64,000 nucleotides of DNA from Gammaproteobacteria bacterium (GTDB lineage: Bacteria; Pseudomonadota; Gammaproteobacteria; SZUA-140): contig JAKISP010000001.1 of NCBI GenBank assembly GCA_021648525.1, forward strand, positions 66,061 through 130,060. The letters run 5' to 3'. Each line of letters starts with the position of its first letter. The stretch's first letter is position 1. A model generated the notes under the pieces. It did no database searches and was not told the DNA's origin. It saw only the letters and a list, made by a program, of their open reading frames with translations. The position numbers were made by a program, and so were the translations under genes. Positions 5,463 through 39,210 of the stretch are shown here, in pieces.

Positions 5463-5521
5463 CCCAATGACGCCTCGCGTTATCACTCCAACCAATCGTG
5501 CTACAAACAGGATGACACCTC

Positions 5522-6808
5522 GTGGATGAGATTTCACTAACCACGCTGCTCGTGGTTCTCTTTGTGCTACTGCTGATCTCCGCATTTTTCTCAGCCTCTG
5601 AGACTGCCATGATGAGCCTTAACCGCTATCGTCTGCGCCACCTTGCTCAAACGGGACACTCAGGCGCAAAACGTGCGCAGAAATTGCTTGAGCGCCCAGA
5701 CCGTTTAATTGGATTGATTCTGCTCGGCAACAACTTTGTTAACATCCTGGCCTCTTCGATCACCACCATCATTGCGCTCAAATATCTGGGCGAAGCCTGG
5801 ATCGCGGCAGCAGCAGGCGTACTAACCCTCGTAATCCTGATTTTTGCAGAAGTTACCCCCAAAACAAAAGCGGCACTAAACCCAGAGCATATCGCCTTTC
5901 CAGCAACCATCATTCTCAAACCATTGCTGGTCATCTGTTACCCGATGGTCTGGATGATTAACATCATCGCCAACAACCTGCTTAAGCTACTCGGAGTTTC
6001 ACCCAATAGTGGTGCCCTGCAACAACTAACACAAGAGGAACTGCGCACCGTCGTGAACGAAGCGGGCGCAATGATCCCACAACGTCATCAAAAAATGCTG
6101 CTCAACATCCTCGATCTTGAAAAGGTCACCATTGAAGACATCATGGTACCGCGCAACGAAATCATCGGCATCGACCTTGACGACGAACTCAATGAGATCA
6201 TTCAATTACTAACTAACTGCCAGCACACGCGCCTTCCGCTCTATCGTGAAAACATTAATAATGTACTCGGCATTATGCATGTGCGCAATGTACTGCCTTT
6301 TATCCATAAAGAAGATTTCAGTAAAGAGACGCTTCTCGGCATCGCAAAAGAGCCTTATTTCATGCCGGAAGGAACAGCACTTAACACTCAACTATTGAAT
6401 TTCCAACGCCAGAAACGGCGTATCGGCCTGGTGGTCGATGAATATGGCGATATCGAAGGATTGGTCACGTTAGAAGATATTCTGGAAGAGATTGTCGGTG
6501 AGTTCACCACTGACATTGCAACCGCTATTAAAGATATCCACCCACAGGAAGATGGCAGCTTTCTTGTGGATGGCAGTGCCAATTTGCGTGAGATCAACCG
6601 CACCATGCATTGGTCATTTCCAACAGATGGCCCTAAGACATTGAATGGCTTAATCACCGATTATCTGGAATCAATCCCCGTTCCAGGAACAAGCCTGCGC
6701 ATTGCGGGCTACCCGATTGAGATTGTACAGATTGCAGACAATACCGTTAAAACAGCGCGGATCTATCCCGAGCTAAAGGTGGTAAACGAGGAAAAAGAAA
6801 CGGATTAA
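5522..6808 (+). CDS. yfjD: HlyC/CorC family protein YfjD (DUF21-CBS-CorC_HlyC)
   Basis: A 428-residue membrane protein of the CNNM/CorB family, proposed to move Mg2+ or to affect metal resistance. Residues about 1-185 form the DUF21 transmembrane domain (SAFFSASETAMMSLNRYRLR, LLGNNFVNILASS). Two CBS domains follow (EDIMVPRNEIIGID; GLVVDEYGDIEGLVTLEDIL at about 299-318), then a C-terminal CorC_HlyC domain (EDGSFLVDGSANLREINR). The start is a GTG at 5522 with an AGGATG upstream. It begins 59 bases after ypjD on the same strand and is probably co-transcribed. Confidence 0.92.
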   Translation: MDEISLTTLLVVLFVLLLISAFFSASETAMMSLNRYRLRHLAQTGHSGAKRAQKLLERPDRLIGLILLGNNFVNILASSITTIIALKYLGEAWIAAAAGVLTLVILIFAEVTPKTKAALNPEHIAFPATIILKPLLVICYPMVWMINIIANNLLKLLGVSPNSGALQQLTQEELRTVVNEAGAMIPQRHQKMLLNILDLEKVTIEDIMVPRNEIIGIDLDDELNEIIQLLTNCQHTRLPLYRENINNVLGIMHVRNVLPFIHKEDFSKETLLGIAKEPYFMPEGTALNTQLLNFQRQKRRIGLVVDEYGDIEGLVTLEDILEEIVGEFTTDIATAIKDIHPQEDGSFLVDGSANLREINRTMHWSFPTDGPKTLNGLITDYLESIPVPGTSLRIAGYPIEIVQIADNTVKTARIYPELKVVNEEKETD

Positions 6809-6836
6809 TGTGGCGATGACAGTTGGTTTAATCGCT

Positions 6837-7865
6837 CTAATCAGCAGCGCTATCACGTTTGGCGCGGCAACAACGATTACGCCCTTCTTCTTTCGCATCA
6901 TAGAGTGCAGCATCTGCCAATGCTATCAAACTTGCGCAGTCATCCCCACATTGCGGTGGAATACCAGCCGCGCCTAATGAAATCGAAACAATATCAGCCA
7001 CATCAGAGAACTCATGTTTAAGCGCCAGCTTCTCCACTGCAAGACGTAACTCTTCTGCGATCACCATCGCGCCATCAAGATCGGTATTCGGCAATACAAC
7101 CGTAAACTCTTCACCACCATAACGCGCCACCATATCGGATGAACGACGCATCGTATCGGCTAAAGCACTCGCAACCTTTTGCAAACAATCATCCCCACCC
7201 TGATGACCATAACCATCATTATATTTTTTGAAGAAATCGATGTCGATCAATAGCAATGCCAGATTGGTCTCTTCGCGTACCGCTCGCCGCCATTCTTTAG
7301 TAATATATTCATCAAACGAACGACGGTTGGGAATACCTGTCAGGCCATCAATCGCAGAGAGACGTTGCAACTCAACGTTTTTGACTTCCAGCTCTTTTTG
7401 TAACTCATGTAACTCACGGAAAGCGGCATCACGCTGTTGCTGTGCCACATAACTACGAGAGTGTGCCCGAATACGAGCAATCAATTCAATTTGATCTGGC
7501 AGCTTAACAAGGTAATCACTAGCACCACAGCTAAAAGCCTCACTCTTATCTTTTGGGTCTTCCTTGCTCGACAATACAATGACTGGTGTGTTGTTCAATA
7601 CTGGATGATTACGATAAAAACGCACCAATGTCATACCATCGATATCAGGCATCACAAGATCCTGCAAAATGGTAGTCGGCGCTATCTCAACCGCCATTTC
7701 GACAGCCTTTTTAGGCTCACTACAATAATGAAAAGTAATATTCGACTCACTAGCCAGCATACGGCGAATCGCTTCTGCAACCATCTGTTGATCATCTACC
7801 AGCAGCACGACAATCTCATCTGTCATACTGTTCTCATCTGATAATGCTTTACTCACGTTGCTCAT
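6837..7865 (-). CDS. wspR: WspR-like response regulator diguanylate cyclase (REC-GGDEF)
   Basis: Output enzyme of the Wsp pathway; it makes cyclic di-GMP from two GTP when phosphorylated. The receiver domain (about residues 15-140) has the acidic pair in VDDQQMVAEA, the phospho-acceptor Asp69 in QDLVMPDIDG, and K in YLVKLPDQ. A coiled helical linker (FRELHELQKELEVKNVELQ) leads to the GGDEF domain beginning LSAIDGLTGIPNRRSFDEY. The active site reads ARYGGEEF. An RSSD inhibitory (I-site) motif lies five residues before the core, as in Pseudomonas WspR. The 342 residues match WspR in length. It is the last gene of the operon, 27 bases after wspF, with a GGGG ahead of the ATG. Confidence 0.94.
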   Translation of the reverse strand: MSNVSKALSDENSMTDEIVVLLVDDQQMVAEAIRRMLASESNITFHYCSEPKKAVEMAVEIAPTTILQDLVMPDIDGMTLVRFYRNHPVLNNTPVIVLSSKEDPKDKSEAFSCGASDYLVKLPDQIELIARIRAHSRSYVAQQQRDAAFRELHELQKELEVKNVELQRLSAIDGLTGIPNRRSFDEYITKEWRRAVREETNLALLLIDIDFFKKYNDGYGHQGGDDCLQKVASALADTMRRSSDMVARYGGEEFTVVLPNTDLDGAMVIAEELRLAVEKLALKHEFSDVADIVSISLGAAGIPPQCGDDCASLIALADAALYDAKEEGRNRCCRAKRDSAAD

Positions 7866-8912: not shown

Positions 8913-11230
8913 CTCGCCTCTCCAATCAAGTCAACCACCGCTTCGCGCAATGACTCATCATGAAAACCACCTTTTGTTAAATAATAGTCAGCACCCGCTT
9001 CAAGCCCCAGTAAGCGGTCCTCTTCTCGATCTTTATAAGAGACAACCATCACCGGGATACGTCGTAGTAATTCATCTTGTTTGATTAATTTTACCAGTTC
9101 AATACCATCCATTCTCGGCATATCAATATCTGTAATCACTAAACGATAATCACCGCTACGCACTGCATTCCAGCCATCCATCCCATCAACGGCAACATCA
9201 ACTTCATAGCCATATGCTTCTAACATTTTACGTTCAACTTCTCGTACAGTGATCGAATCATCGACTACCAGCACTCGCCGGCGATCTTCATTTACACCCA
9301 GATTTTCACCACTCACCTTATCCAGATGCCCCTTTGATATCAGCTTAGCAATCGAGCGTGCCATATCATCAACATCAATAATCAATGTCGGCGATCCATC
9401 ATCAAGTAACGCAGCAACACTCACGTCCTTAATTTTACCTAAACGCGGGTCTATCACCTGAACGGCCAACTCACGTTCACCCATGAATGCATCAACAATC
9501 ACCCCATACTGGCCATGCCTGTCACTCAAAATTACCACATATAATTGCCTGTCATCTCTTGCAACTGGCGCCAGACCAAATACCTGAGACGCAGAAACCA
9601 GACCTATATGACTATCATTCCACGTCACATATTGATGATCCTCAACGAGCTCAATATCATCTACAGAGATCTTCAGTAGATGGTCAATTCGCGCTAGTGG
9701 AAAAGCGTAGCTTTCACCACCAATATCAACCAGCAATGTTCTAATAACCGACAGCGTCAGTGGCAACTGCATCTGGAAACGTGTCCCCCTTCCAGGCTTC
9801 GATGAAACCGTAACCACACCGCGCATCTCTTTAACTGAGTCATGAACGACATCCAGCCCCACCCCCCTTCCAGATATTTCGGTCACCTCACTTCGCGTAC
9901 TAAAACTGGGCAAAAATAGAAATTCCAGCAGTTCGGCATCACCCATTTGTGACAACATCTCCTCGCTACTCAAGCCGCGCTCTAAAATTTTCTGTTTCAG
10001 CAATTCAAGATCAACACCACGACCATCCTCCTCAACGGTCACCAGTAACATGCCAGAACGATGGCGCGCATCAAGCTTCACGATTGCCTGAGCAGGCTTG
10101 CCATTTTCAATACGATCCGCTGGCATTTCAACACCATGATCCACCGCATTTCTCAACAGATGATTAAGTGGTGCTTTTACCATCTCCAATACATCGCGAT
10201 CGACCTGTGTCGTTACACCAGTAATTTCAAGACGCGCATCTTTTCCAAGTGAACGTGCAACATCTCGTACCATTCGTTGAAAGCCATCAACTCCATCAGA
10301 AAAGGGCCTCATGCGGCTCGCCAATACTTCCCGATGTAATCTTCCCGCAAGATTTGCAGTGCGGTAATCAAAGTGCTCCAGATCAACTAATCGATCAGAT
10401 AACGCCTCACGCTGCTTAACTGCTTTTCGCTGCAACTCTATCAGCGCCATCTCTACTGATGGATCAACATCGACCTCATTAAATTTCTCACGCAACCCAT
10501 CTAACTCACTCACCAGATCGAACTGAAAACGCTTAAAGCGCTGCATCGCTTCAATATGTGGATGCAACCACCGCGCCTCAACCATCGCCTCACCAGCAAG
10601 TCCCAGCAGACGATCCATACGCTCAGTACTCACACGTAACACTCGTTCTTTGACTTCTGCCAGCGATACAGCTTTATCAGGCGGCGCCTCTACCACTTTG
10701 CTTTTATCAACATCAAGCGCACCATGTTCAGCAGGTGACTCAACAGATGCTGTTACTCCTCCCCCTCCATCAACAACAGAAACAGTGCTACCTTCAATCA
10801 GCACAACCGAACCCTGCAGCCGCTCCCCATTCAATATTCCTTGAAGCGCTAAAACAAGAGTATCTAACGTCGATCCATTCTGCTGATTCCACGATGGCAA
10901 CTCCGATTCGTCCAACTTAGCGACCTGTCCCATCACATCAACGCCACTTAAAAGGACATCGATATCGCTACTCTTCAATGTCAGTTCATTCTTCTGCGCA
11001 GCTACGAAACAGTCTTCCATCACGTGAGCAATACGAACGATGGGGTCAATATCAACCATCCGCGCAGCACCCTTGATGGAGTGCGATGCGCGCATCATCG
11101 ACTCAAGGTTCTCTGTTCCTGATGCGCTTTGCTCTAACACAAGTAAGCCATCAGTCAATAATAATAGCTGTCCTTCTGCCTCCGTTCTAAAGAGATCGAG
11201 CATTGAAAATCCACTGAGGTCATCATTCAC
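8909..11230 (-). CDS. wspE: WspE-like hybrid histidine kinase (CheA with C-terminal receiver)
   Basis: Central kinase of the Wsp chemosensory complex. The HPt domain at the N-terminus carries His50 in RASHSIKGAARMV. A long linker is followed by the P3-like helical region, then the HATPase domain (LNHLLRNAVDHGVEMP, VEEDGRGVDLELLK, SGRGVGLDVVHDSV). Next come a CheW-like P5 domain (VDIGGESYAFPLARIDHLLK) and a receiver at the C-terminus (VLVVDDSITVREVERKML, Asp in VITDIDMPRMDG, K in YYLTKGGF). The 773 residues and the fused receiver are as in WspE. It overlaps wspD and wspF by four bases each. Confidence 0.94.
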   Translation of the reverse strand: MNDDLSGFSMLDLFRTEAEGQLLLLTDGLLVLEQSASGTENLESMMRASHSIKGAARMVDIDPIVRIAHVMEDCFVAAQKNELTLKSSDIDVLLSGVDVMGQVAKLDESELPSWNQQNGSTLDTLVLALQGILNGERLQGSVVLIEGSTVSVVDGGGGVTASVESPAEHGALDVDKSKVVEAPPDKAVSLAEVKERVLRVSTERMDRLLGLAGEAMVEARWLHPHIEAMQRFKRFQFDLVSELDGLREKFNEVDVDPSVEMALIELQRKAVKQREALSDRLVDLEHFDYRTANLAGRLHREVLASRMRPFSDGVDGFQRMVRDVARSLGKDARLEITGVTTQVDRDVLEMVKAPLNHLLRNAVDHGVEMPADRIENGKPAQAIVKLDARHRSGMLLVTVEEDGRGVDLELLKQKILERGLSSEEMLSQMGDAELLEFLFLPSFSTRSEVTEISGRGVGLDVVHDSVKEMRGVVTVSSKPGRGTRFQMQLPLTLSVIRTLLVDIGGESYAFPLARIDHLLKISVDDIELVEDHQYVTWNDSHIGLVSASQVFGLAPVARDDRQLYVVILSDRHGQYGVIVDAFMGERELAVQVIDPRLGKIKDVSVAALLDDGSPTLIIDVDDMARSIAKLISKGHLDKVSGENLGVNEDRRRVLVVDDSITVREVERKMLEAYGYEVDVAVDGMDGWNAVRSGDYRLVITDIDMPRMDGIELVKLIKQDELLRRIPVMVVSYKDREEDRLLGLEAGADYYLTKGGFHDESLREAVVDLIGEAR

Positions 11231-11901
11231 ACGAGGTTCCTCTGCAGTGAATTAAACAACAATTCCTCGTCTAGTAGCCCTACATTCCGTCCCTCAAGCT
11301 CAAACAGACCGGCAAGATGAGAATATATTGAATTAGCAGCCGTTGCAGGCACCTCACGGATATTTTCCCTCCAGATGCGGTGTGTGCCGATAATTTCACT
11401 CACAGGAAAAACAAATTGCTCTCCGTCTTTTACAAAAATCACTAATCGTTCAAGAAAGCTTTTACGTAATGCAAAAGTATCTGAGCCCCCCCCCTTATCG
11501 ACAGATAACAATCGCCCCATTGAAACCCAGAGCTTCAGTTCACCACGTACATTAACCAAACCTTTTACTACCAGATTCTGGGAGTTTGGAATGCCATGTA
11601 CCGGGCGAATTTCAGAGATCTCTTTGATCGTGATTGTCGGTAAACCAAGCCATTCATCACCCAGTCTAAACACCACAATTGATAGCGAATCATGGCTTTT
11701 TCTGGTTTTTTCTCTTGCCAGCAGAGAGGTCCAGTAATCCTGATAATCTTCAGGTATCGCACGGGTCAACAAGCTCCGGCCAGCATTTGAATATACATCA
11801 CAGTTTCGGCAATGAAGTACATCATCTAAACGCGGACATTTCTCATCCTCAGCGCCCCACACACCAATAGTTGACCAACAGTTTTTTATCTGCTCATCCA
11901 T
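11227..11901 (-). CDS. wspD: WspD-like CheW coupling protein with Cys-rich N-terminus
   Basis: Couples receptor WspA to kinase WspE. The C-terminal two thirds is a CheW domain (VVFRLGDEWLGLPTITIKEI, NVRGELKLWVSMGRLL). The first 55 residues form a distinctive extension with four cysteines (NCWSTIGVWG, KCPRLDDVLHCRNCDVY) followed by PEDYQDYW. As far as I recall, the WspD branch of CheW proteins keeps the same Cys pattern. The role of those cysteines is not known to me; metal binding is possible. Its stop overlaps the wspE start by four bases, and it begins 24 bases after wspC. Confidence 0.9.
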   Translation of the reverse strand: MDEQIKNCWSTIGVWGAEDEKCPRLDDVLHCRNCDVYSNAGRSLLTRAIPEDYQDYWTSLLAREKTRKSHDSLSIVVFRLGDEWLGLPTITIKEISEIRPVHGIPNSQNLVVKGLVNVRGELKLWVSMGRLLSVDKGGGSDTFALRKSFLERLVIFVKDGEQFVFPVSEIIGTHRIWRENIREVPATAANSIYSHLAGLFELEGRNVGLLDEELLFNSLQRNLV

Positions 11902-11925
11902 TTAATCACCCATGAAAAACAATCT

Positions 11926-13221
11926 TCACTGACTCGCCCGCAAAGCACGTCGCCGCAGGCTTTGAGCCTCATTGCTATCCCCATTACGCTCAACATGTAG
12001 TGCAAGATGCACCAATGCCCTGGCATGGTCTGGCACTAAATATATGGTCTTCCTGAACATTGACTCTGCCATATCCTGTCTATTCGACGCCTCATAGACA
12101 AGGCCTAACAAATAATAGGCATCGGCATTACTAAAGCGCGCGATAAGATCAAGACAGAGGATTTCCGCTTCTTCAAGCGTTCCTTCATCAGCGAGTTCCT
12201 GCGCCTTTGATACAAGCGCCTCCTCGTGTTTTTTCGCCTCATAACTGCTGCTGGTGCTGGTGCTGGTGCCGCTGCCCATGTATGCAGAAAATGGCTTATT
12301 GCGATTGCTGCTTTTCGAAACCTGATCAGTACTGGCATGCTGACTATTCACAGGCAATATCGCACCATGTTTCTTTGAGAACTCATGAAAGCGCTTGTCG
12401 TAGTTACCTATAGAGCGATTTTCATCGCCATCTTTCTTAACAAATGCAAATGCACCACGCAGTCGTAATGACTCAAACAGACTATTTACATTATTATTTG
12501 CCTCAGCATGCCCAACAAACAACACGCCATCTGGTGCCAATAGATCATAAAGCTTATGAACTGCAATTTCCTGGTCTTTGCTATCAAAATAAATCAGCAA
12601 ATTTCTACAAAAAACCACATCATAACAACCCTTCATCAAAGAAAAGTCATCTTTTAATAAATTTCCATGACGAAAATTCACTCGACTTCTTACCTTTTCT
12701 TTTAAACGATAACCACCTTCAACTTTGTTAAAATATGTCGACTGAAATGTCAGATCATCACTACGAAAAGAGTTATCTCGATAAACCCCAGTCATCGCCT
12801 TATCAATTGAAGCCTGACTAATGTCAATCGCATCTATCTGTACCCGGTCAGCTGGAAAAGCTAATTTATCAAGTGCCATAGCAATCGTGTATGGCTCCTC
12901 GCCAGTTGAGCAGGGAACACTTAACACTTTAAGCATTCGTGAATTTTCTCTGGGTATTAACCAGCCTGATTTAATATGACTAGAGAAAATATCGAAAGGA
13001 ATATCATCTCTAAAAAACCAGGTTTCAGGGATGACGACCATTTCCACCAAACGCTTAAATTCAGCTTCAGAACTTAACAACGTCTTATAATATTGCCCAA
13101 GATCATCACAACCAGAATTCACTAAGCATCGTTTAATTGCATTTTTCACCGACGCTGTACCAACCGAACTGATATCAAGTCCAATTTTATCTTTTAATAA
13201 TACTTCAATCTTCTCGCACAT
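11926..13221 (-). CDS. wspC: WspC-like chemoreceptor methyltransferase (CheR with TPR tail)
   Basis: Methylates glutamates of the WspA receptor using S-adenosylmethionine. The CheR N-terminal helical region and SAM-binding domain are seen (VLSVPCSTGEEPYTIAMAL, IDAIDISQASIDKA, YDVVFCRNLLIYFD, GVLFVGHAE). After a Ser/Thr-rich linker comes a C-terminal TPR region (ADAYYLLGLVYEASNRQDMA, KTIYLVPDHARALVHLALHV), as in WspC of pseudomonads. 431 residues. The linker is encoded by a short tandem hexanucleotide repeat (about 12246-12275). The start codon overlaps the wspB stop (TAATG). Confidence 0.93.
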   Translation of the reverse strand: MCEKIEVLLKDKIGLDISSVGTASVKNAIKRCLVNSGCDDLGQYYKTLLSSEAEFKRLVEMVVIPETWFFRDDIPFDIFSSHIKSGWLIPRENSRMLKVLSVPCSTGEEPYTIAMALDKLAFPADRVQIDAIDISQASIDKAMTGVYRDNSFRSDDLTFQSTYFNKVEGGYRLKEKVRSRVNFRHGNLLKDDFSLMKGCYDVVFCRNLLIYFDSKDQEIAVHKLYDLLAPDGVLFVGHAEANNNVNSLFESLRLRGAFAFVKKDGDENRSIGNYDKRFHEFSKKHGAILPVNSQHASTDQVSKSSNRNKPFSAYMGSGTSTSTSSSYEAKKHEEALVSKAQELADEGTLEEAEILCLDLIARFSNADAYYLLGLVYEASNRQDMAESMFRKTIYLVPDHARALVHLALHVERNGDSNEAQSLRRRALRASQ

Positions 13222-13688
13222 TACTCTTTCGGCTCAACAGGGCTACCGTACAGAACATCGCAATCGTGCCGAGATAGTAAGCGATCTACATCCACCCACT
13301 GAATGATGCCACTTTCATCTGTTATCATGTTTGAAACATAATTATTTTCTGAAGAGTGTTGCACCGAACGATGAAAACGCTCTATTTCCAGTGAAATAGT
13401 TTCTGTGGCGTGCTCTACAATCATTCCGAGATGATGTTCATGATCGTTATAGTCAGTATATTTAACTAGTAAAATCCGAGTACTCATCACCGCACGCGAC
13501 ATAATCCCATCAAGCAGGCAACGAATATCAATCACTGGTACTGGCACTGCTCGATAATTACACAGGCCCGCAACATAGTTAGCTGTATTAGGGAAATTAC
13601 TCAATTTAACCAACGGCACAACTTCAATCACTTTTTTAGCATCGACCACATAACGATCATCACCAACATAAAAGATAACAAACAGCAT
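13221..13688 (-). CDS. wspB: WspB-like CheW coupling protein
   Basis: A 155-residue single-domain CheW protein (MLFVIFYVGDDRYVVDAKKV, YVAGLCNYRAVPVPVIDIRC, LGMIVEHATETISLE). With WspD it is one of two coupling proteins that link the receptor to the WspE kinase. The ATG overlaps the wspA stop by one base (TGATG), showing tight translational coupling. Length and position between receptor and CheR match the canonical wspA-wspB-wspC order. Confidence 0.92.
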   Translation of the reverse strand: MLFVIFYVGDDRYVVDAKKVIEVVPLVKLSNFPNTANYVAGLCNYRAVPVPVIDIRCLLDGIMSRAVMSTRILLVKYTDYNDHEHHLGMIVEHATETISLEIERFHRSVQHSSENNYVSNMITDESGIIQWVDVDRLLSRHDCDVLYGSPVEPKE

Positions 13689-15721
13689 CAGGAATCGATC
13701 TTGAATTGGGAGACACCACCTTGAAGGCCGTGCGCAGCATCATTAAGACGATCAATTGCACTATTGGATTGACGTAATGACTCTACCGTTTGTTGTGCAG
13801 ATTCACTGAGTTGAATCATTGCCTGCTTAATCTGTTCTGCACCTTCAGATTGCATATGCATGCCTTCATGAACAATTTCAAAACGCGGTGTTAACGTCTG
13901 CACCTGATCTATAATTTGCGCAAGCTGTGCACCCACCTCTCGTACATCATCGACACTATTTTTTACCTCTTTCGAAAATTTCTCAACACTCATCACACCA
14001 CCGGATACAGCTGATTGCATCTCTTTTACCATCTGCTCAATATCCAGTGTAGCGACAGCAGTTTGATCAGCCAGACGACGAATCTCAGTGGCCACGACAG
14101 CGAAACCAACACCATACTCCCCCGCCTTCTCAGCTTCGATAGCCGCATTAAGTGATAGTAAATTGGTTTGATCCGCCACTTTTGTAATCGTTGTTACCAC
14201 AGAGTTAATATTGCCAGCTTTTTCACTTAATACCTCAAGCTTGGATGCGATCGCATTGGATGCATCAACCACAGAGTGCATCGTCTCTTCCATGCGGACC
14301 AGGCCAGTATGACCACTAGCGGCTGCCTCAGCAGTACCGGATGCAACACCCGCCACTTCGTCCATCGTATTGACCAGTTCTTTGCCGGTTGCTGAAATTT
14401 CAGTGGCCGTGGCTACAATTTCATTCACAGTTGCCGCCTGTTCGGCCACGGTTGCCTCTTGCTGTTTAGCTGAAGCGGCTATTTCAGTAGAAGATGATGT
14501 CACCTGAATACCTGACTGCTGAACCTGTGATACAAGACCATTAAGACTATTAATCATCGTCTGAATACCCTGAGCCATACGGCCAACAGCATCATCACCA
14601 TCAATATCAATTTCGCCGGTCAAGTCACCCGCTGCGGCACGCTGGACTATCATTTGCATCTTACCCACTTTCTCTTCCAGGTCTTCCATTGCAATACGGC
14701 GATCTTCCATGAGCTCACTTAAATTATGAACCATTGATTGCAGACCAGAGCCAAGTGAACCGATGGCGTCGTCCCCAGAAAAAGTGACAATGCCGGTCAA
14801 ATCACCTTCAGCAGCTCGATTAACCACGTCAAGTAATATATTGACCTTCTCTTTCAATACTTCAGCAGCATCATGCTCACGCTGTGCCTGAATCTGTTGT
14901 TGTTGACTCGCGCCATCCACATTATCAGCCATGGTGTTGAATGCCATACCAAGCTTACCAATTTCATCCTGAGAAGAGATAGAAATTCTCACAGATAAAT
15001 CACCCTCGGCACGCTTATTAACCGTATCCATCACTCGTTTCAGTGGTGCAGAAAGCCATTTTCCCAATAAAAAATTAGCCAACAACAAACCAACGATTAA
15101 CAATAAAATGTTTGCAATTATTTGCGTACGCACATCTTTAGCAATTGTTTCATCGATATGCTGTAACGAGTAACTCACTCGAATAGCACCATTAACTGAA
15201 TTTTCCGGTACATTATGACAAGCTAAACAATTCACATCCCCTGGATTTTTCCCCGCAGTTGCTCGAAATGGTGTTAAGACAGTTAAAACTCGCCCATCAA
15301 TTCCCTTATCAAAATCCGATCCCTGTTGTACTTCCATAATATCTTCGCCCTGCAGCGCACGCATATCCCATTCATCGACAGGGGCCTCTTCTGGAAAGCC
15401 AGGGCCATATTGCTGATTCACGGGTTCCCCACGAATAACCCTCGCATCAACAACATTATTACGCTTAAGAATCTTATTTCGCAGAATACTGCGCTGGTCC
15501 ATGGTGTTCGTTAACATCATGGTATTGAGACTATCAAAATAGAATGTAGCCAGGTCTTTAGTGCGCTCTTCAGCATCATCCTGCGCGCGTTGTTTCTCTA
15601 TAAATACGGTATAGCCTGTTACCATGCTAATGACAAAGACAAAGATGGTGGCGACAGTCAAATTGATCTTCACCCTGACGGATAGATGACCAAACAATGA
15701 ACCACTCTCTTTTGATGCCAT
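13688..15721 (-). CDS. wspA: WspA-like methyl-accepting chemoreceptor with periplasmic c-type heme motif
   Basis: Receptor of the Wsp pathway. From the ATG at 15721 (GAGGG seven bases upstream; the frame also runs to a TTG at 15754) the protein has 677 residues. TM1 is at about 18-40, a periplasmic domain at about 42-198, and TM2 at about 200-219. Three HAMP-like repeats follow (RAEGDLSVRI, RAAEGDLTGIV, RAAAGDLTGEI), then the MCP signalling domain with hairpin tip NAAIEAEKAGEYGVGFAVV and TEIRRLADQTAVATLDIEQM, typical of Wsp receptors. The periplasmic domain contains CLACH at 165-169 (codons 15215-15229), a CxxCH c-type heme attachment motif in the context PGDVNCLACHNVPENS. To my knowledge Pseudomonas WspA lacks such a motif. 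Heme or redox sensing is inferred. Confidence 0.9.
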   Translation of the reverse strand: MASKESGSLFGHLSVRVKINLTVATIFVFVISMVTGYTVFIEKQRAQDDAEERTKDLATFYFDSLNTMMLTNTMDQRSILRNKILKRNNVVDARVIRGEPVNQQYGPGFPEEAPVDEWDMRALQGEDIMEVQQGSDFDKGIDGRVLTVLTPFRATAGKNPGDVNCLACHNVPENSVNGAIRVSYSLQHIDETIAKDVRTQIIANILLLIVGLLLANFLLGKWLSAPLKRVMDTVNKRAEGDLSVRISISSQDEIGKLGMAFNTMADNVDGASQQQQIQAQREHDAAEVLKEKVNILLDVVNRAAEGDLTGIVTFSGDDAIGSLGSGLQSMVHNLSELMEDRRIAMEDLEEKVGKMQMIVQRAAAGDLTGEIDIDGDDAVGRMAQGIQTMINSLNGLVSQVQQSGIQVTSSSTEIAASAKQQEATVAEQAATVNEIVATATEISATGKELVNTMDEVAGVASGTAEAAASGHTGLVRMEETMHSVVDASNAIASKLEVLSEKAGNINSVVTTITKVADQTNLLSLNAAIEAEKAGEYGVGFAVVATEIRRLADQTAVATLDIEQMVKEMQSAVSGGVMSVEKFSKEVKNSVDDVREVGAQLAQIIDQVQTLTPRFEIVHEGMHMQSEGAEQIKQAMIQLSESAQQTVESLRQSNSAIDRLNDAAHGLQGGVSQFKIDS

Positions 15722-16054
15722 AAGAAACCCTCTGACCAACTCTGAAATGTGCAATTAAAAACACGTTCACAACTTCTATTTTCTACACCATAAAGTTGTC
15801 AAAGATTAAAACGGCTGAACATTTCAGAACTTTAATAAGTTCCTGGCTATGTTTAAGAAAAAATATAATACCGGGTGCGGAAGACCTGTCGTGAATAAAG
15901 CGCTCTTTCCGTGCCAGCTATAGACGCGATACTGGTACGAATACAGGCACCATGAGCTCCAATGTAATCCTTAGTATTATATTAAGCACAGTGAAAAAAC
16001 TATTTACTACGCCTCTCTATTCTTTTTCTCTGAACAGAAAACTATCAAAAACAT
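15722..16054 (-). promoter_or_regulatory. Upstream region of the wsp operon, candidate promoter
   Basis: 333 bases without a gene between wspA and the outer membrane protein gene, both on the minus strand. On the minus strand a perfect TTGACA lies at 15797-15802, about 80 bases before the wspA ATG. The expected -10 position holds only a weak ATAGAA-like hexamer. No clear terminator or operator is visible in the rest. Confidence 0.3.
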
Positions 16055-16867
16055 TTAAAATACTCGTCCTATTGAAAAGTTCATGACATCCATATCGCTC
16101 TTAGGTTGCTCAAACCCTGACACCACATCACTCTTAGCAAAACGGTAACTGTCATAAAGGAATTTGACATAAACCCCCTCGTCACCAGTCCTGCCTATCA
16201 ACTGAAAACGGTATGAGAAAAAGAGAGAAGGCCTCTTTCCAGGCTTAAGCTCAAGAGAAAATGCATCAATAGTCTCATTAGTGTAAAAAGGGTATTTAAT
16301 CCCAGCTCGCCATAAACTTCGCCAGATATCAGCCCTTTTTTCCATTCCTAGCGAAAACCGAGTAAACGCTATGTCAAAAACCTCCTCATAACCAGTAACT
16401 CTGTCCCCCTGCGAGCTAGTACCATTACCAATATCTCTGGACCACCTATCCAGCCCCACACCAGCAAGTAAATCTAATGAGCGTCCCCATTTATAATTCA
16501 CCAGCCGATATCCTCCAGTCAATTCAGTTGCTGCCCCTAAATAATCAACACTTGCAGTGGCAAAACGACCTAAACGCTGTGTTTGACCGTCATAATCAAC
16601 GACCCCACCATAGACAGAGGCATCCATTCGATAAAGCAGTCCACTAGTCAATCGCCCTTCATTATTATGAGAAAAGTTAAGACGTGCTCGAGGGCCTTGC
16701 TCGGTTAGCAGTCGCGTACCAGTCCGGCCAAACTCCTGCCAACGGAATAACTCAACACCAGCACTGACTTCTGTCACCCCATCATCTGCGAGCTCATCAG
16801 CAATCACGAGTGAATTGCCAAATATGAGCAATGTACTAAAAAAAACAAACACGGTAGTTTTTTTCAT
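16055..16867 (-). CDS. Outer-membrane beta-barrel-like protein, unknown function
   Basis: A 270-residue secreted protein starting MKKTTVFVFFSTLLIFGN with a signal peptide cut probably after VIADA-like residues near position 24. The mature part has alternating hydrophobic/polar strands rich in aromatic residues (GYRLVNYKWGRSLDLLAGVG, FFSYRFQLIGRTG, VYVKFLYDSYRFA). It ends in phenylalanine (NFSIGRVF), the usual outer-membrane barrel signature. I chose the ATG at 16867 over an upstream GTG at 16879 because an AAGG lies 11 bases upstream and the signal peptide starts there. I do not recognise the family. It lies upstream of the wsp operon on the same strand, separated by more than 330 bases. Confidence 0.75.
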   Translation of the reverse strand: MKKTTVFVFFSTLLIFGNSLVIADELADDGVTEVSAGVELFRWQEFGRTGTRLLTEQGPRARLNFSHNNEGRLTSGLLYRMDASVYGGVVDYDGQTQRLGRFATASVDYLGAATELTGGYRLVNYKWGRSLDLLAGVGLDRWSRDIGNGTSSQGDRVTGYEEVFDIAFTRFSLGMEKRADIWRSLWRAGIKYPFYTNETIDAFSLELKPGKRPSLFFSYRFQLIGRTGDEGVYVKFLYDSYRFAKSDVVSGFEQPKSDMDVMNFSIGRVF

Positions 16868-16902
16868 TCTAGCTGACACCTTACAATCAAATTAATTATT
16901 AT

Positions 16903-17079
16903 GAGACCTTTGCACAATCCAGGCATGAAAGAAAAATGGGAGAATATTTTCCTGGTTGAGGCAAAAAGCATCGTTAATACCCAAAGGGGCACACCGTAGC
17001 GTGCTATTGACCCATTTTCTAACGAAAAGCAGGGATATATTAGCCATTGTTACCCGTGATTGTATCGTGCGAAGGTTTT
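16903..17079. mobile_element. 177-bp non-autonomous transposable element (MITE-like) with 5-bp target duplication
   Basis: The left end reads GAGACCTTTGCACAATCC (16903-16920). The right end read on the other strand is AAAACCTTCGCACGATAC. These match as imperfect terminal inverted repeats. The element is flanked on both sides by ATTAT (16898-16902 and 17080-17084), a target-site duplication. It is too short to encode a transposase, and the open frame across it has no protein-like character. The ends resemble those of some IS5-like insertion sequences. Related ends occur at 54123-54261 and, degenerate, at 45594-45777. Confidence 0.75.
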
Positions 17080-17158
17080 ATTATATACACAATGCCAGAG
17101 ATGCTGTTTTTGGGCCAGCAGACTGTCGAACTCAGGGTGAATCTACTACGGACATGGT

Positions 17159-17182
17159 GCCCTTTGAGTAAAGGGCCATTTT
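17159..17182 (+). terminator. Possible rho-independent terminator
   Basis: Hairpin GCCCTTT / AAAGGGC with loop GAGT, followed after two bases by TTTT. No plus-strand gene ends just upstream, so it may be a relic. The surrounding non-coding stretch (17080-17448) shows nothing else I can support. Confidence 0.35.
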
Positions 17183-17448
17183 GACCTATTTTCCGATCCT
17201 TTTCGTTAAATATGCGCCCCCTGGTACAAAATGGCTTTCCCTCGCCACGATCTACCCCTCCTAGAATGCAATCAATATGATAGCCATTACTACCGAATAA
17301 GAAAATTTAAATATGCTATATTGCCACACTATACACTCTGATGATTACAACAGGAATTAAGCTAATACAGCGATAGTCGAATTGAAGAGAACCTTCAAAG
17401 TTAATTAGATATATTGTTACTCACCACACGAAAAAGAGGTGAGAGACG

Positions 17449-17589
17449 TCAGTCCTCGTCCACAAGCCTAAAATCTATGTCGGATAGATCCCCTGACGAG
17501 TCCCACTCATTACCCCATTTATCTGCTGAAATGTAATCTTCAGCAAACTCCTCATTCATGTCTAAATCATCATCTTTTGGGCCGCTCAT
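17449..17589 (-). CDS. Small acidic protein, 46 residues, unknown
   Basis: A short reading frame on the minus strand starts with ATG at 17589, has GAGG eight bases upstream, and stops with TGA at 17449. The product starts MSGPKDDDLDMNEEFAED and ends DIDFRLVDED. About a third of its residues are Asp or Glu, and it has two Trp (KWGNEWD). No signal peptide or membrane segment is seen. It follows yqiB on the same strand, 154 bases downstream. I do not recognise a family. The good ribosome-binding site and biased composition argue for a real gene, though it is short. Confidence 0.5.
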   Translation of the reverse strand: MSGPKDDDLDMNEEFAEDYISADKWGNEWDSSGDLSDIDFRLVDED

Positions 17590-17743
17590 AAAAACACCCT
17601 CGCTTTACTATACTCGAATCCCATAAAGCCCCTATAAATACACAGAGGGGCCAGCCAAAGACAAATACAACTGCTATTGTGTATATCGGCCCAGACGAAG
17701 GAGACTTGATAAAGGAGATGTCAACTACTGCCGAGTAGTATTT

Positions 17744-18184
17744 CTATACCTCAACACTACAGGCAAAGCGATAATCTTTCGATGCACAAAACGACAGCCA
17801 TTCAGAAAAAAATTGATTCACACGCCGCTTCTCAATCGGATAGCGTAGCTTGTTATTAGGGTAGGTATAGATGCGAGCAAAACCCGTTTTGTTTTGATAG
17901 GTCAACACTTCAGCAACTCGTGCGTCATTATAGACCTTCACTTTCAGATACATATCAGGAACGATTTCGTTATCGTCAAGGGCATGAAGAAAAACAATTG
18001 TTAACGTATATTTCCCGCGTTCCACTACATTCATCAGTAGATCCGGCAAACCACTGGATGATGAAAGTATTACCGTATCGACACCCATATCAGGCACCAG
18101 CCGAGCTAATGCCTGGTAGTTCTCTTCGTACATCACCATTAATGGTTTTTTATCTGGTATTAACATTAATTTATACAACCACAC
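17744..18184 (-). CDS. yqiB: DUF1249 family protein YqiB
   Basis: A 146-residue protein matching E. coli YqiB along its length: ENYQALARLVPD near the start, LTIVFLHALDDNE, MYLKVKVYNDARVAEVLTYQ, and YPNNKLRYPIEKRRVNQFF followed by EWLSFC. In E. coli yqiB follows nudF, as here. The frame opens with a GTG at 18184. An ATG six codons later (MLIPDKKPLMV) is an equally good start. Function unknown. Cytoplasmic, no membrane segment. Confidence 0.85.
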   Translation of the reverse strand: MWLYKLMLIPDKKPLMVMYEENYQALARLVPDMGVDTVILSSSSGLPDLLMNVVERGKYTLTIVFLHALDDNEIVPDMYLKVKVYNDARVAEVLTYQNKTGFARIYTYPNNKLRYPIEKRRVNQFFSEWLSFCASKDYRFACSVEV

Positions 18185-18245
18185 TTCAATATGTTTTATA
18201 TATCGACCACACCAGGAAACAGTTGATGCATTATTAAGGACACCT

Positions 18246-18866
18246 CTATTTACACCACTCTCGCTGTAAACGATTCCGATTTAGAATCAACCACTGCAAT
18301 GCAATAATAGGGCTAGCAGAGTTAATACGACCACTATTAAGCAGCAACACAGCCTCACCATAGGAAAATACACTCACTTTGATATCCTCCCCTTCATCAA
18401 TAAGTCCATGCACGCCGCCTACTCCGGTGGTATCTACCTTGCCACAAAATAGCGCAGTTGACTCTGTCGCGCCACCAGGACTAACAAGATAATCACATAC
18501 ATGCTCTAACTGCTCAATTTTGCAGCCAGCCTCTTCAGCCATCTCTCTATGTGCCACGCCTTCAGCACTCTCACCCTCATCAATAATTCCTGCCACAATT
18601 TCAACCAACCAGGGGTCGGCAGAAAAATCTAACGCGCCGACTCGGAACTGCTCTATCAACACCACCTCATCACGTACCGGGTCATACGGTAATACAGCAA
18701 CGGCATGCCCCCGCTCAAAGATCTCTCGCGTTAAAATATCACTCCATTCACCATCGTATTTTCGATACCTAAGGCGTAATCGGGCAATACTAAAAACCCC
18801 CTTATAACAGATCGTTTTCTCAATGATTTCAACGTTATCTACCGACACGCGCCACCCCTCATTCAA
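18246..18866 (-). CDS. nudF: ADP-ribose pyrophosphatase NudF
   Basis: A Nudix hydrolase that splits ADP-ribose to AMP and ribose 5-phosphate. The Nudix box is complete: GIIDEGESAEGVAHREMAEE followed by AG. The surrounding sequence matches E. coli NudF (REIFERGHAVAVLPYDPVRD, VVLIEQFRVGALD, SPGGATESTALFCG, SPIIALQWLIL). 206 residues, usual length. It is followed by yqiB on the same strand, as in E. coli. The start is the ATG at 18866. Confidence 0.94.
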   Translation of the reverse strand: MNEGWRVSVDNVEIIEKTICYKGVFSIARLRLRYRKYDGEWSDILTREIFERGHAVAVLPYDPVRDEVVLIEQFRVGALDFSADPWLVEIVAGIIDEGESAEGVAHREMAEEAGCKIEQLEHVCDYLVSPGGATESTALFCGKVDTTGVGGVHGLIDEGEDIKVSVFSYGEAVLLLNSGRINSASPIIALQWLILNRNRLQREWCK

Positions 18867-18931
18867 TCACTGCTATTATAACAATAAAATACCAGACCTC
18901 TTTCAAGTTAAACGACTGACTATTACCAGGA

Positions 18932-20023
18932 ATGAACAGACAATCGCAAAACCACCTATGGCCGCTGTTATTCGTCCTGCTGTTAGCCATTATTGCAGTT
19001 TTTTCACTAAAGGCTAAACAAGACGAAGCTAATAAACCAACATTCATTTCGGGGTGGAAAGATGCTGCGTCTTTTATTGAGCCAAGACGCGCACTAGCGG
19101 CAGTCACATACAATAACCATCTATATGTACTAGGCGGTATTGATGCCGGAAACCGTTACGTTCGCACAGTGGAATACACTAAAATTAGAGCTGATGGTAG
19201 CCTGGGAAAATGGCAAAAAACAAGCCGCCTGAATGAAGGCCGTTTTTACCTTGCAGCGGCGGCGAGCAATGGGTATCTGTTTGCAATTGGCGGAGCCAAA
19301 GGGGTGTTAGGCAAACATAACACCCCCGTTGCAACCGTAGAAAAGGCCAAAATCAACCCTGATGGCTCGCTTGGCAGGTGGGTGTTAACAGGTGATCTGA
19401 CCACACCACGACGAGGCTTAACGGTCAATCAATACGGCAATCGTATTTATGCACTTGGCGGATATAACGGTATATTCCTACATTCAATCGAACAGACAAC
19501 GGTGAACAAAAATGGACAGCTTAGCGAGTGGGCCCTCTCTCCTCAACAGTCAACAGTAGACCGCTACATTCATTCATCCGCAATCGCTGGTGAAAACCTG
19601 TACCTGCTCGCTGGCCACATGAAAAATAGCCAGACAGTCAGCTACGGTGATGTTGAATTAAGCCAGATAAGCGATAGTGGGGCACTATCACCCTGGCGCA
19701 TTGAAAACACAATGCTACTGACCCCACGCTTTATCGCCTCTGCATTTTCACTGGGCAGTTACCTCTATCTTCTGGCAGGACATGATGGCGCGAAAAGACT
19801 GAGGAGCGTCGAGTTTACCCTCATCGATCAATCAGGGCATGTGGGGCGCTGGCAACGAACCGCGCCACTAAAAATTGCTCGTAGCGGTACAGCAACAGTC
19901 ACCCACAACCAAAGGGTCTACGTACTGGGTGGCATTAGCCAGAACAAGGTCCTCAATCACGTGGAAACAGCCATTCAAATCGAAAATGGAAACTTAGGGA
20001 ACTTCTCAGTGGTCATTCGTTAA
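18932..20023 (+). CDS. Membrane-anchored kelch-repeat beta-propeller protein
   Basis: A 363-residue protein with one N-terminal hydrophobic segment (about residues 9-26, LWPLLFVLLLAIIAVFSL), acting as a signal anchor, followed by six kelch-type repeats. Each has the pattern of a hydrophobic strand, double glycine and Trp (NNHLYVLGGIDAG, NGYLFAIGGAKG, GNRIYALGGYNG, ENLYLLAGH, GSYLYLLAGHDG, NQRVYVLGGIS). Inter-blade strands read DGSLGKWQKT and NGQLSEWALS. It is probably periplasmic and may bind protein or carbohydrate; no catalytic residues are evident. It is divergent from nudF. Confidence 0.8.
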   Translation: MNRQSQNHLWPLLFVLLLAIIAVFSLKAKQDEANKPTFISGWKDAASFIEPRRALAAVTYNNHLYVLGGIDAGNRYVRTVEYTKIRADGSLGKWQKTSRLNEGRFYLAAAASNGYLFAIGGAKGVLGKHNTPVATVEKAKINPDGSLGRWVLTGDLTTPRRGLTVNQYGNRIYALGGYNGIFLHSIEQTTVNKNGQLSEWALSPQQSTVDRYIHSSAIAGENLYLLAGHMKNSQTVSYGDVELSQISDSGALSPWRIENTMLLTPRFIASAFSLGSYLYLLAGHDGAKRLRSVEFTLIDQSGHVGRWQRTAPLKIARSGTATVTHNQRVYVLGGISQNKVLNHVETAIQIENGNLGNFSVVIR

Positions 20024-35693: not shown

Positions 35694-35934
35694 ACAATCA
35701 CAATCGATAGTTCATTGATTAAAAAGAAAAAAATAAGCACATACCAACTCAGAACCTACATGTTACTTACTACATCTAATCCATCGTCTGCCGCTATATA
35801 TAAGTATAAGATGTATATTGGCAACATCACTCAGAGGGCCTGCATCGGCACTCGCACATACCCGGGCAATTCTCTTGTTTAATCACCTCACTCAACCAGA
35901 TAGCAACGTACAGGCCCCCGCCCCACGGGCGTTA

Positions 35935-38900
35935 ATGTTGTGGTTTTTACTGGCATCCCTGCTACCCTTTTGCCTGCATGCAGTACCAACCCAGTGGCAA
36001 TGGGCCCATCCCACCCCGCACGGCAATCAGCACAATAGTGTTATCTGGGGTAACGATGAGTTTGTCGCCGTCGGCGAAGGTGGCAACATCACCACCAGTC
36101 AATCTGGCGGCAACGAAAGCTGGGTAGTAGAACCCTCAGATACAACGGAGAACCTGAATGATATTGCATGGAGTGGATCCCGTTACGTCAGCGTTGGAGA
36201 CCAGGGAACCATTGTCAGCCGTACTAACAGCGGAAACTGGGACATTCGCACATCAACCATCACCCATAAATTAACCGATGTTATCTGGAATGGGGAACAG
36301 TTCCTCGCCATTGGAGAATACACGGCGTCCTTTACCCACCCAATCGATGGTGCACAAAACCGATCTGCTGCTGCTATTCTTACCAGCGCAACAGGTTCTG
36401 GCTGGCGACTTGAAAGCCCTGCCCTCAATCCAGACCGCTACAGTAACGTACCACCGCCCAGGCTTCGCGGTATCACCTGGGATGGCAGCTTATATGTCGC
36501 CAGCAGTGATGATGGCGCTATTTTAACCAGCCTTGATGGCATTGCCTGGCATACGCGCTCAATCAATAGTATTGCAAACAATGGTAAAGCAGGTTTGAAT
36601 AAACGCTTTTTAGCCGTGGGGGATAACGGCTTAACACTTAGCAGCAGTGATGGCATCAGCTGGACAAAACGTGCGCCCGGCATTTCCGATAATCTACACG
36701 ACGTCACCTGGGCAGAAGTACACTTTGTCGTGGTAGGTGCAAACGGCACGATTATTTCCACCAAAGACGACGACGGTATAACCTGGGAGACTGAAGCATC
36801 AGGCTCAACTGCGACATTACGCAGCATTACCTTCAATCAAACTTCAAGCGTTATCGCCGTGGGTGATAACGGCACGATTCTCACTCGTTCTCTATCGCCA
36901 CTCACCTGGACTCACCAGGCAGTAGACGCAACCTCAGAGGATCTGCATAGTGTCGCCTGGTCTCTGAACAGTATTTTTAGTTATGTTATCGTCGGCAGCG
37001 GAGGCACAATACTGACTAGCGTTAATACCACCGACTGGGAAGCCGCAACAGATTCCCCCACAGGGTTCACCACCGACTTGCTACATGTGACAGGGGTTCG
37101 TAATTTAACATCGGCACCTGGGGATGAGTTTTTCCTTGCTACCGGCAAAAATGGCACACTGCTCACCACAACCAGTAACATCAACACATGGGTGCCACGC
37201 AGCAGCAACATCAGCGGCGAATGGCTATTCGATAGCACCTGGGATGGAACCAACCATATTGTGGTCGGTAGCAACGGCACCCTGATTACCAGCACTAGCC
37301 TCGATGGCAGCATTTGGACAACGCAGAATGCACAAACCAGTGAGCACCTTTTGAGCATCGCTATTGATAACACGACCACCTTGATTGGTGGTGAATTCAA
37401 CCTCCAGATCTCCACCAGTGACCCGACCAACATCAGTCCTGCAGATATAATAATCGGCAGTGGTCGTATTACATCTCAGCACCTGAATGATATTCTCTTT
37501 GATAATGACAGATATGTCGCCATTGGTAACGCCGGTACTATTATCACTAGCGATGATGCCGACTACTGGACTACCCCCTCCTCTATCACCGATGGTGGTA
37601 GCAGCATCACCAACGATCTATTGAGCATTGGGATAGAAAATGCAACAGATGAGTTTCTTGTCACCGGCACCTGGGGCACGTTTCTACGCAGTAATGATTC
37701 AACAGGAGATACCTGGACATCCGAAGCAATCCCAGTAATCTCTGCTCCTGGCGCCAGTTTTTTCTACGGTGTTGCCTCATCAAACAATTCAATTGTAGCC
37801 ATCGTAGGTAGCGGTGGCGACATCTATACCAGCTTTGACAGTGGTCTTGCCTGGAACCTCACTGCTGGTCCTCTCGAAACCCAGGAAACAATCAATGACC
37901 TTGTCAGAAGTGACACGCTACTGGTTGCCGTCGGCGATAACGGTACTATTTTAAACAGTAATAATGCAGGCGTGGGCTGGGAAGACCAGACTCCAACATC
38001 CTCCTGTGGCGCTAACCGCCTGCACGCCGTGACCTGGAGCGATGTTACCAATCGATTTGTCGCTGTCGGTGACATCGGCACCATCTGCTACAGCAATGAT
38101 GGCTCGACGTGGGTACCGCCACCCGTTTCAGCGGATTTACCAGGCAACTCCAGCACCTTATACGGTATTACATGGGGTAAAGATCAATTTGTTGCCGTCG
38201 GTGGTTCAGCGGTCAACAGTGTTATTTATACCAGCCCATTCGGTGAGAAATGGACCCCCCGTGACTCAAGTGAGTCAAGCACACTGCGTGAGGTCGTCTG
38301 GAATGAAGATCACTTTATTGCCATCGGTGATGGCGGCACGATCACCACTAGCCCTAAAGGCATATCCTGGACAAGAAATAACAGCGGCAGCAGCATTAAT
38401 CTAAACAGCATTGCAATTGGTGAAAACAGCATCATCGTCACTGGCACTTCCAGCTCACCTGCTAGCACCACCATATTAATAAATAGTGATGGTACATGGA
38501 CCGGGGGGGATAGCCAGCCCGCATTCACTGGCATCCAGATCAATGATATTAGCTTTGGTGGTACTCAGTATGCTGCTGTTGCTCCATCAGGCACCATTAT
38601 GGTTAGCCCTGACGGTGCAGCATGGACAAGGGTATTAACTGGCACAAACAGCTTATTCAAAACTGTTCTCTGGGACGAAGGAAAATTTATTGCCGCCGGC
38701 GCTGCCGCGCATATTCTGTTCTCAATAAATCCGGACCTGGTCATTAGCGGGGACTTTACCACCGAAAAAGTGCGGGAAGGTGAAACCGCCCGTTATATCT
38801 TGTCAATCACCAACAGAGGGTATGTAACCGCCGAACGAGCTCAGTATTCAGGGACATTGTCTCGAAACAGTCTCTTTTTATCGGCCACCACCACGCTTGG

Positions 38901-39210
38901 AAGCTGCGCAATGGGGGTTTCTTTAGTCTGTGATTTTGGCAACCTCACATCAGGTGAAACAGTCACTCTCACTGTTAATATTGTCACAACAGCCATTGGA
39001 CTCCAGGGGTATACTGGAATCGTAAGTTCAAATGCAATAGATGACGGCGATGAAAGTAATAATAGTCTCGCAATAACCCTTGAGGTGACTCGCGGCAACC
39101 CCGATGGTGGTGGCGGTACGATGAGTTACTGGTGGCTAGCAAACATGCTAATCTTCCTGCTCGCCTACAGATACTATTTGAATCACCATTACCCCACTAG
39201 AAACAGATAA
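35935..39210 (+). CDS. Giant secreted repeat protein (YCF48/BNR-like propellers) with C-terminal sorting-type tail
   Basis: About 1091 residues from the ATG at 35935, which opens a signal peptide (MLWFLLASLLPFCLHA). The frame extends 39 codons upstream to a TTG. The body is made of about 18-20 repeats of some 45 residues with the pattern F(V/I)AVG-D-x-GTI(L/I)TS-x-DG-x-W-T, for example FVAVGEGGNITTS, FIAIGDGGTITTS and FVAVGDIGTICYS. This is the form of YCF48/BNR beta-propellers. A DUF11/CARDB-like immunoglobulin-type domain follows at about 940-1050 (ARYILSITNRGYVTAE). The end is GGGGTMSYWWLANMLIFLLA plus a basic tail (PTRNR), resembling GlyGly-CTERM sorting signals. It is likely cell-surface bound. 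Function unknown. Confidence 0.75.
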   Translation: MLWFLLASLLPFCLHAVPTQWQWAHPTPHGNQHNSVIWGNDEFVAVGEGGNITTSQSGGNESWVVEPSDTTENLNDIAWSGSRYVSVGDQGTIVSRTNSGNWDIRTSTITHKLTDVIWNGEQFLAIGEYTASFTHPIDGAQNRSAAAILTSATGSGWRLESPALNPDRYSNVPPPRLRGITWDGSLYVASSDDGAILTSLDGIAWHTRSINSIANNGKAGLNKRFLAVGDNGLTLSSSDGISWTKRAPGISDNLHDVTWAEVHFVVVGANGTIISTKDDDGITWETEASGSTATLRSITFNQTSSVIAVGDNGTILTRSLSPLTWTHQAVDATSEDLHSVAWSLNSIFSYVIVGSGGTILTSVNTTDWEAATDSPTGFTTDLLHVTGVRNLTSAPGDEFFLATGKNGTLLTTTSNINTWVPRSSNISGEWLFDSTWDGTNHIVVGSNGTLITSTSLDGSIWTTQNAQTSEHLLSIAIDNTTTLIGGEFNLQISTSDPTNISPADIIIGSGRITSQHLNDILFDNDRYVAIGNAGTIITSDDADYWTTPSSITDGGSSITNDLLSIGIENATDEFLVTGTWGTFLRSNDSTGDTWTSEAIPVISAPGASFFYGVASSNNSIVAIVGSGGDIYTSFDSGLAWNLTAGPLETQETINDLVRSDTLLVAVGDNGTILNSNNAGVGWEDQTPTSSCGANRLHAVTWSDVTNRFVAVGDIGTICYSNDGSTWVPPPVSADLPGNSSTLYGITWGKDQFVAVGGSAVNSVIYTSPFGEKWTPRDSSESSTLREVVWNEDHFIAIGDGGTITTSPKGISWTRNNSGSSINLNSIAIGENSIIVTGTSSSPASTTILINSDGTWTGGDSQPAFTGIQINDISFGGTQYAAVAPSGTIMVSPDGAAWTRVLTGTNSLFKTVLWDEGKFIAAGAAAHILFSINPDLVISGDFTTEKVREGETARYILSITNRGYVTAERAQYSGTLSRNSLFLSATTTLGSCAMGVSLVCDFGNLTSGETVTLTVNIVTTAIGLQGYTGIVSSNAIDDGDESNNSLAITLEVTRGNPDGGGGTMSYWWLANMLIFLLAYRYYLNHHYPTRNR

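Follow-up and report, generated by a model that had tools for sequence, protein, structure and literature searches.

The stretch of gammaproteobacterial DNA analysed here, 64,000 nucleotides long and called the window below, carries a gene for a large repeat protein that is probably secreted and, through the GlyGly-CTERM/rhombosortase route, displayed at the cell surface. As judged from its sequence and by analogy with described systems, the product would be a Ycf48/Asp-box-like multi-propeller protein. Retention at the surface by an already described mechanism is the most likely explanation, since the genome encodes both a tail of a known type and the enzyme by which tails of this type are cleaved. 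The protein would add to the rhombosortase route a large cargo without a recognised enzyme domain.

The gene, its start codon and export of the product

The gene lies on contig C46 of its genome, within a plus-strand frame that is open from 35818 to 39210 in the list of open reading frames of the window. Two starts were considered: a TTG at 35875, which gives a coding sequence at 35875-39210 (+) and a protein of 1111 residues, and an in-frame ATG at 35935, which gives 1091 residues. We prefer the TTG after inspection of the sequence and of the alignment, because in both of the nearest complete orthologues no start is possible ahead of the equivalent TTG, because a TTG TTT A(A/G)T CA block and a purine-rich stretch 5' of the TTG are kept in all five aligned upstream regions, and because this start yields a signal peptide with an arginine ahead of the hydrophobic core, while the ATG yields none. 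Unless stated otherwise, residues are numbered from the ATG at 35935.

Hydropathy and reading by eye place the predicted signal peptide at 35875-35982 (+), with cleavage guessed after ...FCLHA and before VPTQW, so that the protein would possess the signal peptide expected of GlyGly-CTERM proteins. It is the most hydrophobic stretch of the whole protein (best 15-residue Kyte-Doolittle window 2.3). The four cysteines that follow it occur as two pairs, which suits export. The core is acidic, with 105 aspartates and glutamates against 43 lysines and arginines, and threonine, serine and glycine are abundant.

When the regions upstream of the gene were aligned for five orthologues, a 33-base element, TACTACAT.TAAT..AT..TCTGCCG.TATATA, emerged at 35768-35800 (+). 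It is largely conserved among genus orthologues whose proteins share 56-83% identity and has a single match within the window, and its core was found in 9 of 127 loci, every one of them a copy of the same upstream region. The element is probably a promoter or operator. It loosely resembles the consensus of the FliA site, and FliA is encoded in the genome; a sigma-28 promoter was rejected, since its 43 occurrences in the genome compare with 38 for a reversed control pattern and no convincing counterpart was seen ahead of the flagellin gene.

Wherever the flanks are on the contig, the gene occupies the same locus in the genus, between nth/DUF1841 and genes for YtkA-like and VOC-like proteins. 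No carbohydrate gene is found among these neighbours.

Blade repeats, ring models and relatives

Ten of the protein's repeats served as seeds for an iterated blade profile, which recognised 18 units at a domain E-value of at most 0.01; 50 shuffled versions of the region gave one match in total. Counting by hand brings the number to 21, because three gaps between the recognised units hold degenerate blades. Blades 1-4 lie at 36034-36564 (+), where blade 3 has a long insertion that terminates in PPPRL, blades 5-11 at 36565-37485 (+), blades 12-14 at 37486-37893 (+) and blades 15-21 at 37894-38739 (+). The strict form of the Asp-box occurs once in the protein, and a relaxed form occurs in nine places. 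Pfam contains no propeller family that spans the repeats above its cut-off; we read a CRR42-like match above cut-off over 23 residues and an NCBIfam SipA match below its cut-off as partial hits to individual blades. When the protein was used as a single sequence to search the PDB, no match was obtained, and a profile of four orthologues matched one PDB sequence only, the 'Ycf48-like protein' 5ojp_A, at E 3.8e-5. The repeats are, by this profile match, akin to those of Ycf48. The whole protein has no paralogue in its own genome, where the sole match was to the DUF11 region, on contig C34.

The repeats are followed at 38734-39078 (+) by an Ig-like domain. DUF11 (PF01345) covers residues 934-1048 with E 8.8e-11 and 42.6 bits, above the gathering score of 24.6, and CARDB matches the same stretch (residues 932-1045, E 1.1e-6).

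Confidence in the full-length structure model is low (mean pLDDT 55.6, pTM 0.38). Within it, residues 202-488, corresponding to blades 5-11, are modelled as a closed seven-bladed ring that superposes on seven-bladed propellers; the top row has Z 28.1, rmsd 2.7 and 270 aligned residues, and rows within 1 of this Z are regarded as tied. A second model of residues 494-941, comprising ten blades, is of middling confidence, with a mean pLDDT of 67.0. Here blades 15-21 closed into a seven-bladed ring (residues 644-935), leaving out blades 12-14, and the top row was virginiamycin B lyase (Z 28.9, rmsd 2.5, 271 aligned, model residues 152-440). No Ycf48 or GH74 chain is among the best 50 rows of each VIA list, which excludes nothing. 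In the models, hairpin blades of the S.D.G..W type close into rings, as in an Asp-box/Ycf48-like beta-propeller; such a shared fold shows no function.

A preliminary description of this gene, made from the sequence, had proposed some 18-20 YCF48/BNR-like repeats forming two or three propellers, followed by an Ig-like domain. The label is right as a statement of repeat kinship, because the orthologue profile matches 5ojp_A, and the Ig-like domain is borne out by DUF11 and CARDB. As for the propellers, 21 units fit three sevens; two of these are modelled as closed rings, and the third follows by remainder.

Relatives were sought in 20 genomes of the family, from which the data on distribution come, apart from a wider contig scan that gave three loci; a search at the level of the order came back with these same 20 genomes. 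A whole-genome search at E <= 1e-10 gave a match in 14 of the 20. Within the genus, 7 of 10 genomes have a match, its own included, and the three without one are G013 (91% complete), G016 and G019. Identity to the window protein is 83% for the orthologue from G012, 79% for G011, 57% for G017 and 56% for G015. In G017, a separate gene (L076, 12305-12919, minus strand) that lies a few kilobases away from the propeller gene encodes a protein ending in VPEPASIALMGLGLLGMGVAARRRRKL, which resembles a PEP-CTERM tail.

In sister genera the relatives are shorter, at 756 to 902 residues, and the blade profile counts 14 units in five of these proteins, so that the 21 blades of this genus stand one propeller's worth above them. 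Profile-profile alignment with hhalign pairs the sister-genus group with window residues 175-1034 (E 9.5e-70), and no long gaps interrupt the aligned C-terminal ring or DUF11 domain. Homology begins at blade 4 and extends over the C-terminal propeller and the DUF11 region, and the tails are similarly built; in contrast, the relatives have 14 instead of 21 blades, another locus and a weaker or different tail motif. By eye, several sister-genus propeller genes (L083, L085, L089 and neighbours) adjoin yggT-like and/or DUF167 (yggU-like) genes; DUF167 (PF02594) was searched for in the window's own genome and had no match there. With 14 blades in some members of one family and 21 in others, these proteins form a small natural series for propeller growth by whole rings, and this difference, together with a possible nested ring, gives the protein extra interest.

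The idea of nesting stems from the blades outside both modelled rings: these, 1-4 and 12-14, add up to seven, which would allow one propeller to be set within another. The outer tryptophan is missing, by eye, from two blades, 11 and 21, and these missing outer strands, along with an N-terminal TQWQW strand, are the expected closure points of 1+3 Velcro rings, a closure type covered in section 10 of PMC2716378. The leftover seven and the two tryptophan-less blades make the arrangement attractive: the ring of blades 5-11 would interrupt, after blade 4 and before blade 12, a ring formed by 1-4 and 12-14, the ring of 15-21 would follow, and the genus would have gained exactly one propeller from a 14-blade ancestor in a protein displayed through rhombosortase. 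Comparison with the 14-blade relatives, blade by blade, bears out the ring at the C-terminus (register -7 has a mean centred score of 8.8, the next best 2.3). It places window blades 4-6 opposite blades 1-3 of the relatives and blades 10-11 opposite 6-7, which fits neither a clean insertion of blades 5-11 nor a simple 7+7+7; the blades may alternatively split as 6+8+7. Because blade similarity to the relatives has no simple fit, the nested arrangement is a tentative possibility, somewhat doubtful in its complete form.

The C-terminal tail and the sorting machinery

The protein ends at 39106-39207 (+) in the sequence GGGG-TMSYWWLANMLIFLLAY-RYY...TRNR, a glycine motif followed by a hydrophobic stretch and a basic end. 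Against the GlyGly_CTERM model TIGR03501, with a cut-off of 15.5 bits, the tail scores 15.7 with its in-frame neighbours, 15.1 as the last 53 residues and 14.7 as the last 60; in a scan of the whole 1091-residue protein it is not listed. Matching the C-terminal end to a CTERM model, as the preliminary description had advised, thus gives values around the threshold, on either side of it. Section 8 of PMC3237569, by the authors of the model, demands a glycine motif free of cysteine, warns that the model cannot find all true examples and advises the use of homologues. For this reason the orthologue tails were examined. A cysteine-free glycine-rich motif, a hydrophobic stretch and a basic end at the extreme C-terminus are present in the window protein and in all six aligned genus tails, and the tail from G015 lies above the cut-off (17.1 bits). 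The core G-G-x-x-x-S/G-Y-W-x-L is kept in five of the six, the sixth having L for W, while the residues beyond the hydrophobic stretch drift.

Conservation of this core with drift behind it argues against reading the tail as an ordinary membrane anchor at the C-terminus or as an extension of low hydrophobicity, in which case the protein would stay in the periplasm or inner membrane and its glycines would be a linker. That alternative, to which we give little weight, draws on the near-threshold GlyGly_CTERM score, on weak tails in distant family members and on modest hydropathy: the best 15-residue Kyte-Doolittle window of the tail is 1.5 against 1.6 in the protein body, so that hydropathy alone does not mark the tail as a membrane segment. 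It must also account for the similarity of the tail to unrelated tails of the same genome and for the full rhombosortase encoded there. A further point against the sorting tail is that TIGR03501 matches 5 of the 15 scanned family tails at E <= 10. Weak matches to this short model mean nothing, because at that threshold it gives matches in 11 of 14 control genomes.

Similarity to same-genome tails was assessed with a profile of the tails of five unrelated proteins, four of them above the TIGR03501 cut-off and the fifth (L010, 11116-15264) chosen by eye. The window tail scores 15.5 bits, against -0.5 for the best other of 54 open reading frames in the window and 8.4 for the best shuffle (2000 made, 1699 scored). 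Six of 16 family tails beat that shuffle; the other ten, from distant relatives and one genus fragment, fall below it. By this measure the likeness is beyond chance, and the GlyGly-CTERM-like tail of the preliminary description is supported.

The same description had named the absence of a rhombosortase as grounds for abandoning its proposal. The enzyme is present: TIGR03902 matches a protein on contig C75 with E 6.6e-51 and 173.3 bits (cut-off 84), and none of the 14 control genomes has a match above the cut-off. The protein carries WRIIT, SGVLH and AHLYGAISG, stretches of the type given as rhombosortase signatures in section 17 of PMC3237569. In the family, a rhombosortase was found in 19 of 20 genomes, including all ten of good quality. 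The assumed type II secretion background has support from the secretin, the one component searched for, GspD being present with E 2.5e-178 and 593.6 bits (cut-off 351).

Other proteins with the same tail, which had also been suggested as a check, do occur in the genome. GlyGly_CTERM scores above cut-off at six places, three on contig C14 and one each on C7, C36 and C46, the last being the propeller gene; among the control genomes, 1 of 14 has a match above cut-off. As one of the C14 tails, in a 53-residue frame behind another gene, appears to be an orphan, these places amount to four other full genes with above-cut-off tails. The orphan (about 15320-15411 of L010, that is, C14:1-20000) lies between two genes and is nearly identical to the tail of the next gene, at 15610-19014; it was probably left behind when a lyase gene was duplicated.

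On C14, three genes, at 4257-7661, 11116-15264 and 15610-19014 (L010), end in GlyGly-CTERM-like tails, as does one more on C36 (L012), and all four carry Ig-like domains. Pfam Alginate_lyase matches the C14 gene at 15610-19014 (E 4.1e-32) and the C36 gene (E 6.1e-33), and it seems that alginate lyases of this genome are anchored at the cell surface with the help of rhombosortase; our literature search returned no paper joining GlyGly-CTERM with alginate lyase. On contig C65, a minus-strand gene (L013, 4974-8027) encodes an FG-GAP repeat protein (PF13517, E 1.7e-70) that ends in GGG, a hydrophobic stretch and RKRRR. Its tail scores 12.4 bits, below the GlyGly-CTERM cut-off, and the protein is likely a second propeller-type cargo.

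Proposed route, function and comparison with known systems

In the favoured scheme, the signal peptide would carry the propeller protein through the inner membrane, where the hydrophobic stretch at the C-terminus would park it. By analogy with VesB, the rhombosortase would then cut at the glycine motif and a glycerophosphoethanolamine-containing group would be joined to the new C-terminus, after which the type II system would move the protein across the outer membrane, to which it would stay attached. For VesB, passages of PMC6219818 and PMC13393428 describe cleavage at the glycine motif, such a modification of the new C-terminus, type II transport and surface attachment. In PMC13393428, Roberts et al. 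also state that crossing the outer membrane takes more than the tail and calls for a second secretion signal, a requirement that counts against the scheme. A passage there lists proteases, a DNase and one protein whose function is unknown as rhombosortase cargoes. Literature searches gave no paper joining GlyGly-CTERM with a propeller, none pairing any of rhombosortase, Ycf48, BNR repeat and surface polysaccharide lyase, and none joining a Ycf48-like protein, a propeller and the surface.

Once at the surface, the DUF11 domain could serve as the stalk, with the rigid propellers forming an exposed surface for binding or scaffolding. By analogy we favour a surface-tethered binding or scaffold protein, for which an adhesin role is a possible candidate. 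Most solved Asp-box propellers are glycosidases, and the same type of tail is found on alginate-lyase-like proteins in this genome; for these reasons the likeliest ligand would be a glycan or a cell-surface partner.

The same facts raise the question of whether the protein is itself an extracellular Asp-box glycosidase, a GH74-like tandem propeller, which would change its function and leave the route as it is. Several GH74 xyloglucanases are among the top Foldseek rows listed (13-16% identity), with TM-scores of about 0.2 to 0.3 that come from the low-confidence model, and the weak matches to NF045728, 'F510_1955 family glycosylhydrolase', reach 36.9 bits against a cut-off of 175. The presence of alginate-lyase-like genes with such tails would suit an enzyme, and the lack of an adjoining carbohydrate gene speaks against one. 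The motif of GH33 sialidases is F/Y-R-I-P; FRIP is absent, and no [FY]RI[PA] occurs anywhere in the protein. An enzyme of this kind is, in our estimate, improbable.

A photosystem-II-like assembly factor or periplasmic Ycf48-type assembly scaffold, a role the preliminary description had also raised and to which the sole PDB sequence match might point, is scarcely credible, given that the Ycf48 model NF010237 finds no match in the window protein at E <= 10 and gives 29 bits for the orthologue P0002 against a cut-off of 326, that the protein is more than three times as long as 5ojp_A (326 residues) and bears a sorting tail, and that its neighbours are nth, DUF1841, VOC-like and YtkA-like genes; what is left of that proposal is kinship of fold.

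Among known systems, Ycf48 and Ycf48-like proteins (PDB 5ojp) share related repeats with the surface-display candidate described here. Ycf48 has seven blades, whereas the window protein has 21, together with an Ig-like domain, a sorting tail and no photosystem context. GH74 xyloglucanases (7 + 7 blades) resemble it in having continuous Asp-box-like blades arranged as tandem seven-bladed propellers, an arrangement listed as type 3 in section 10 of PMC2716378; the likeness is at the level of the fold, and the window protein differs in possessing three propellers' worth of blades and one strict Asp-box. The closest parallel in sorting is offered by the rhombosortase-processed GlyGly-CTERM proteins (TIGR03501/TIGR03902) such as VesB of Vibrio cholerae, with which it shares a predicted signal peptide, a tripartite C-terminal tail, a rhombosortase encoded elsewhere in the genome and a type II secretin. 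In contrast to VesB, its tail stands at the cut-off of the model and is a predicted substrate for processing, and the cargo is a 21-blade propeller protein in place of a protease or nuclease.
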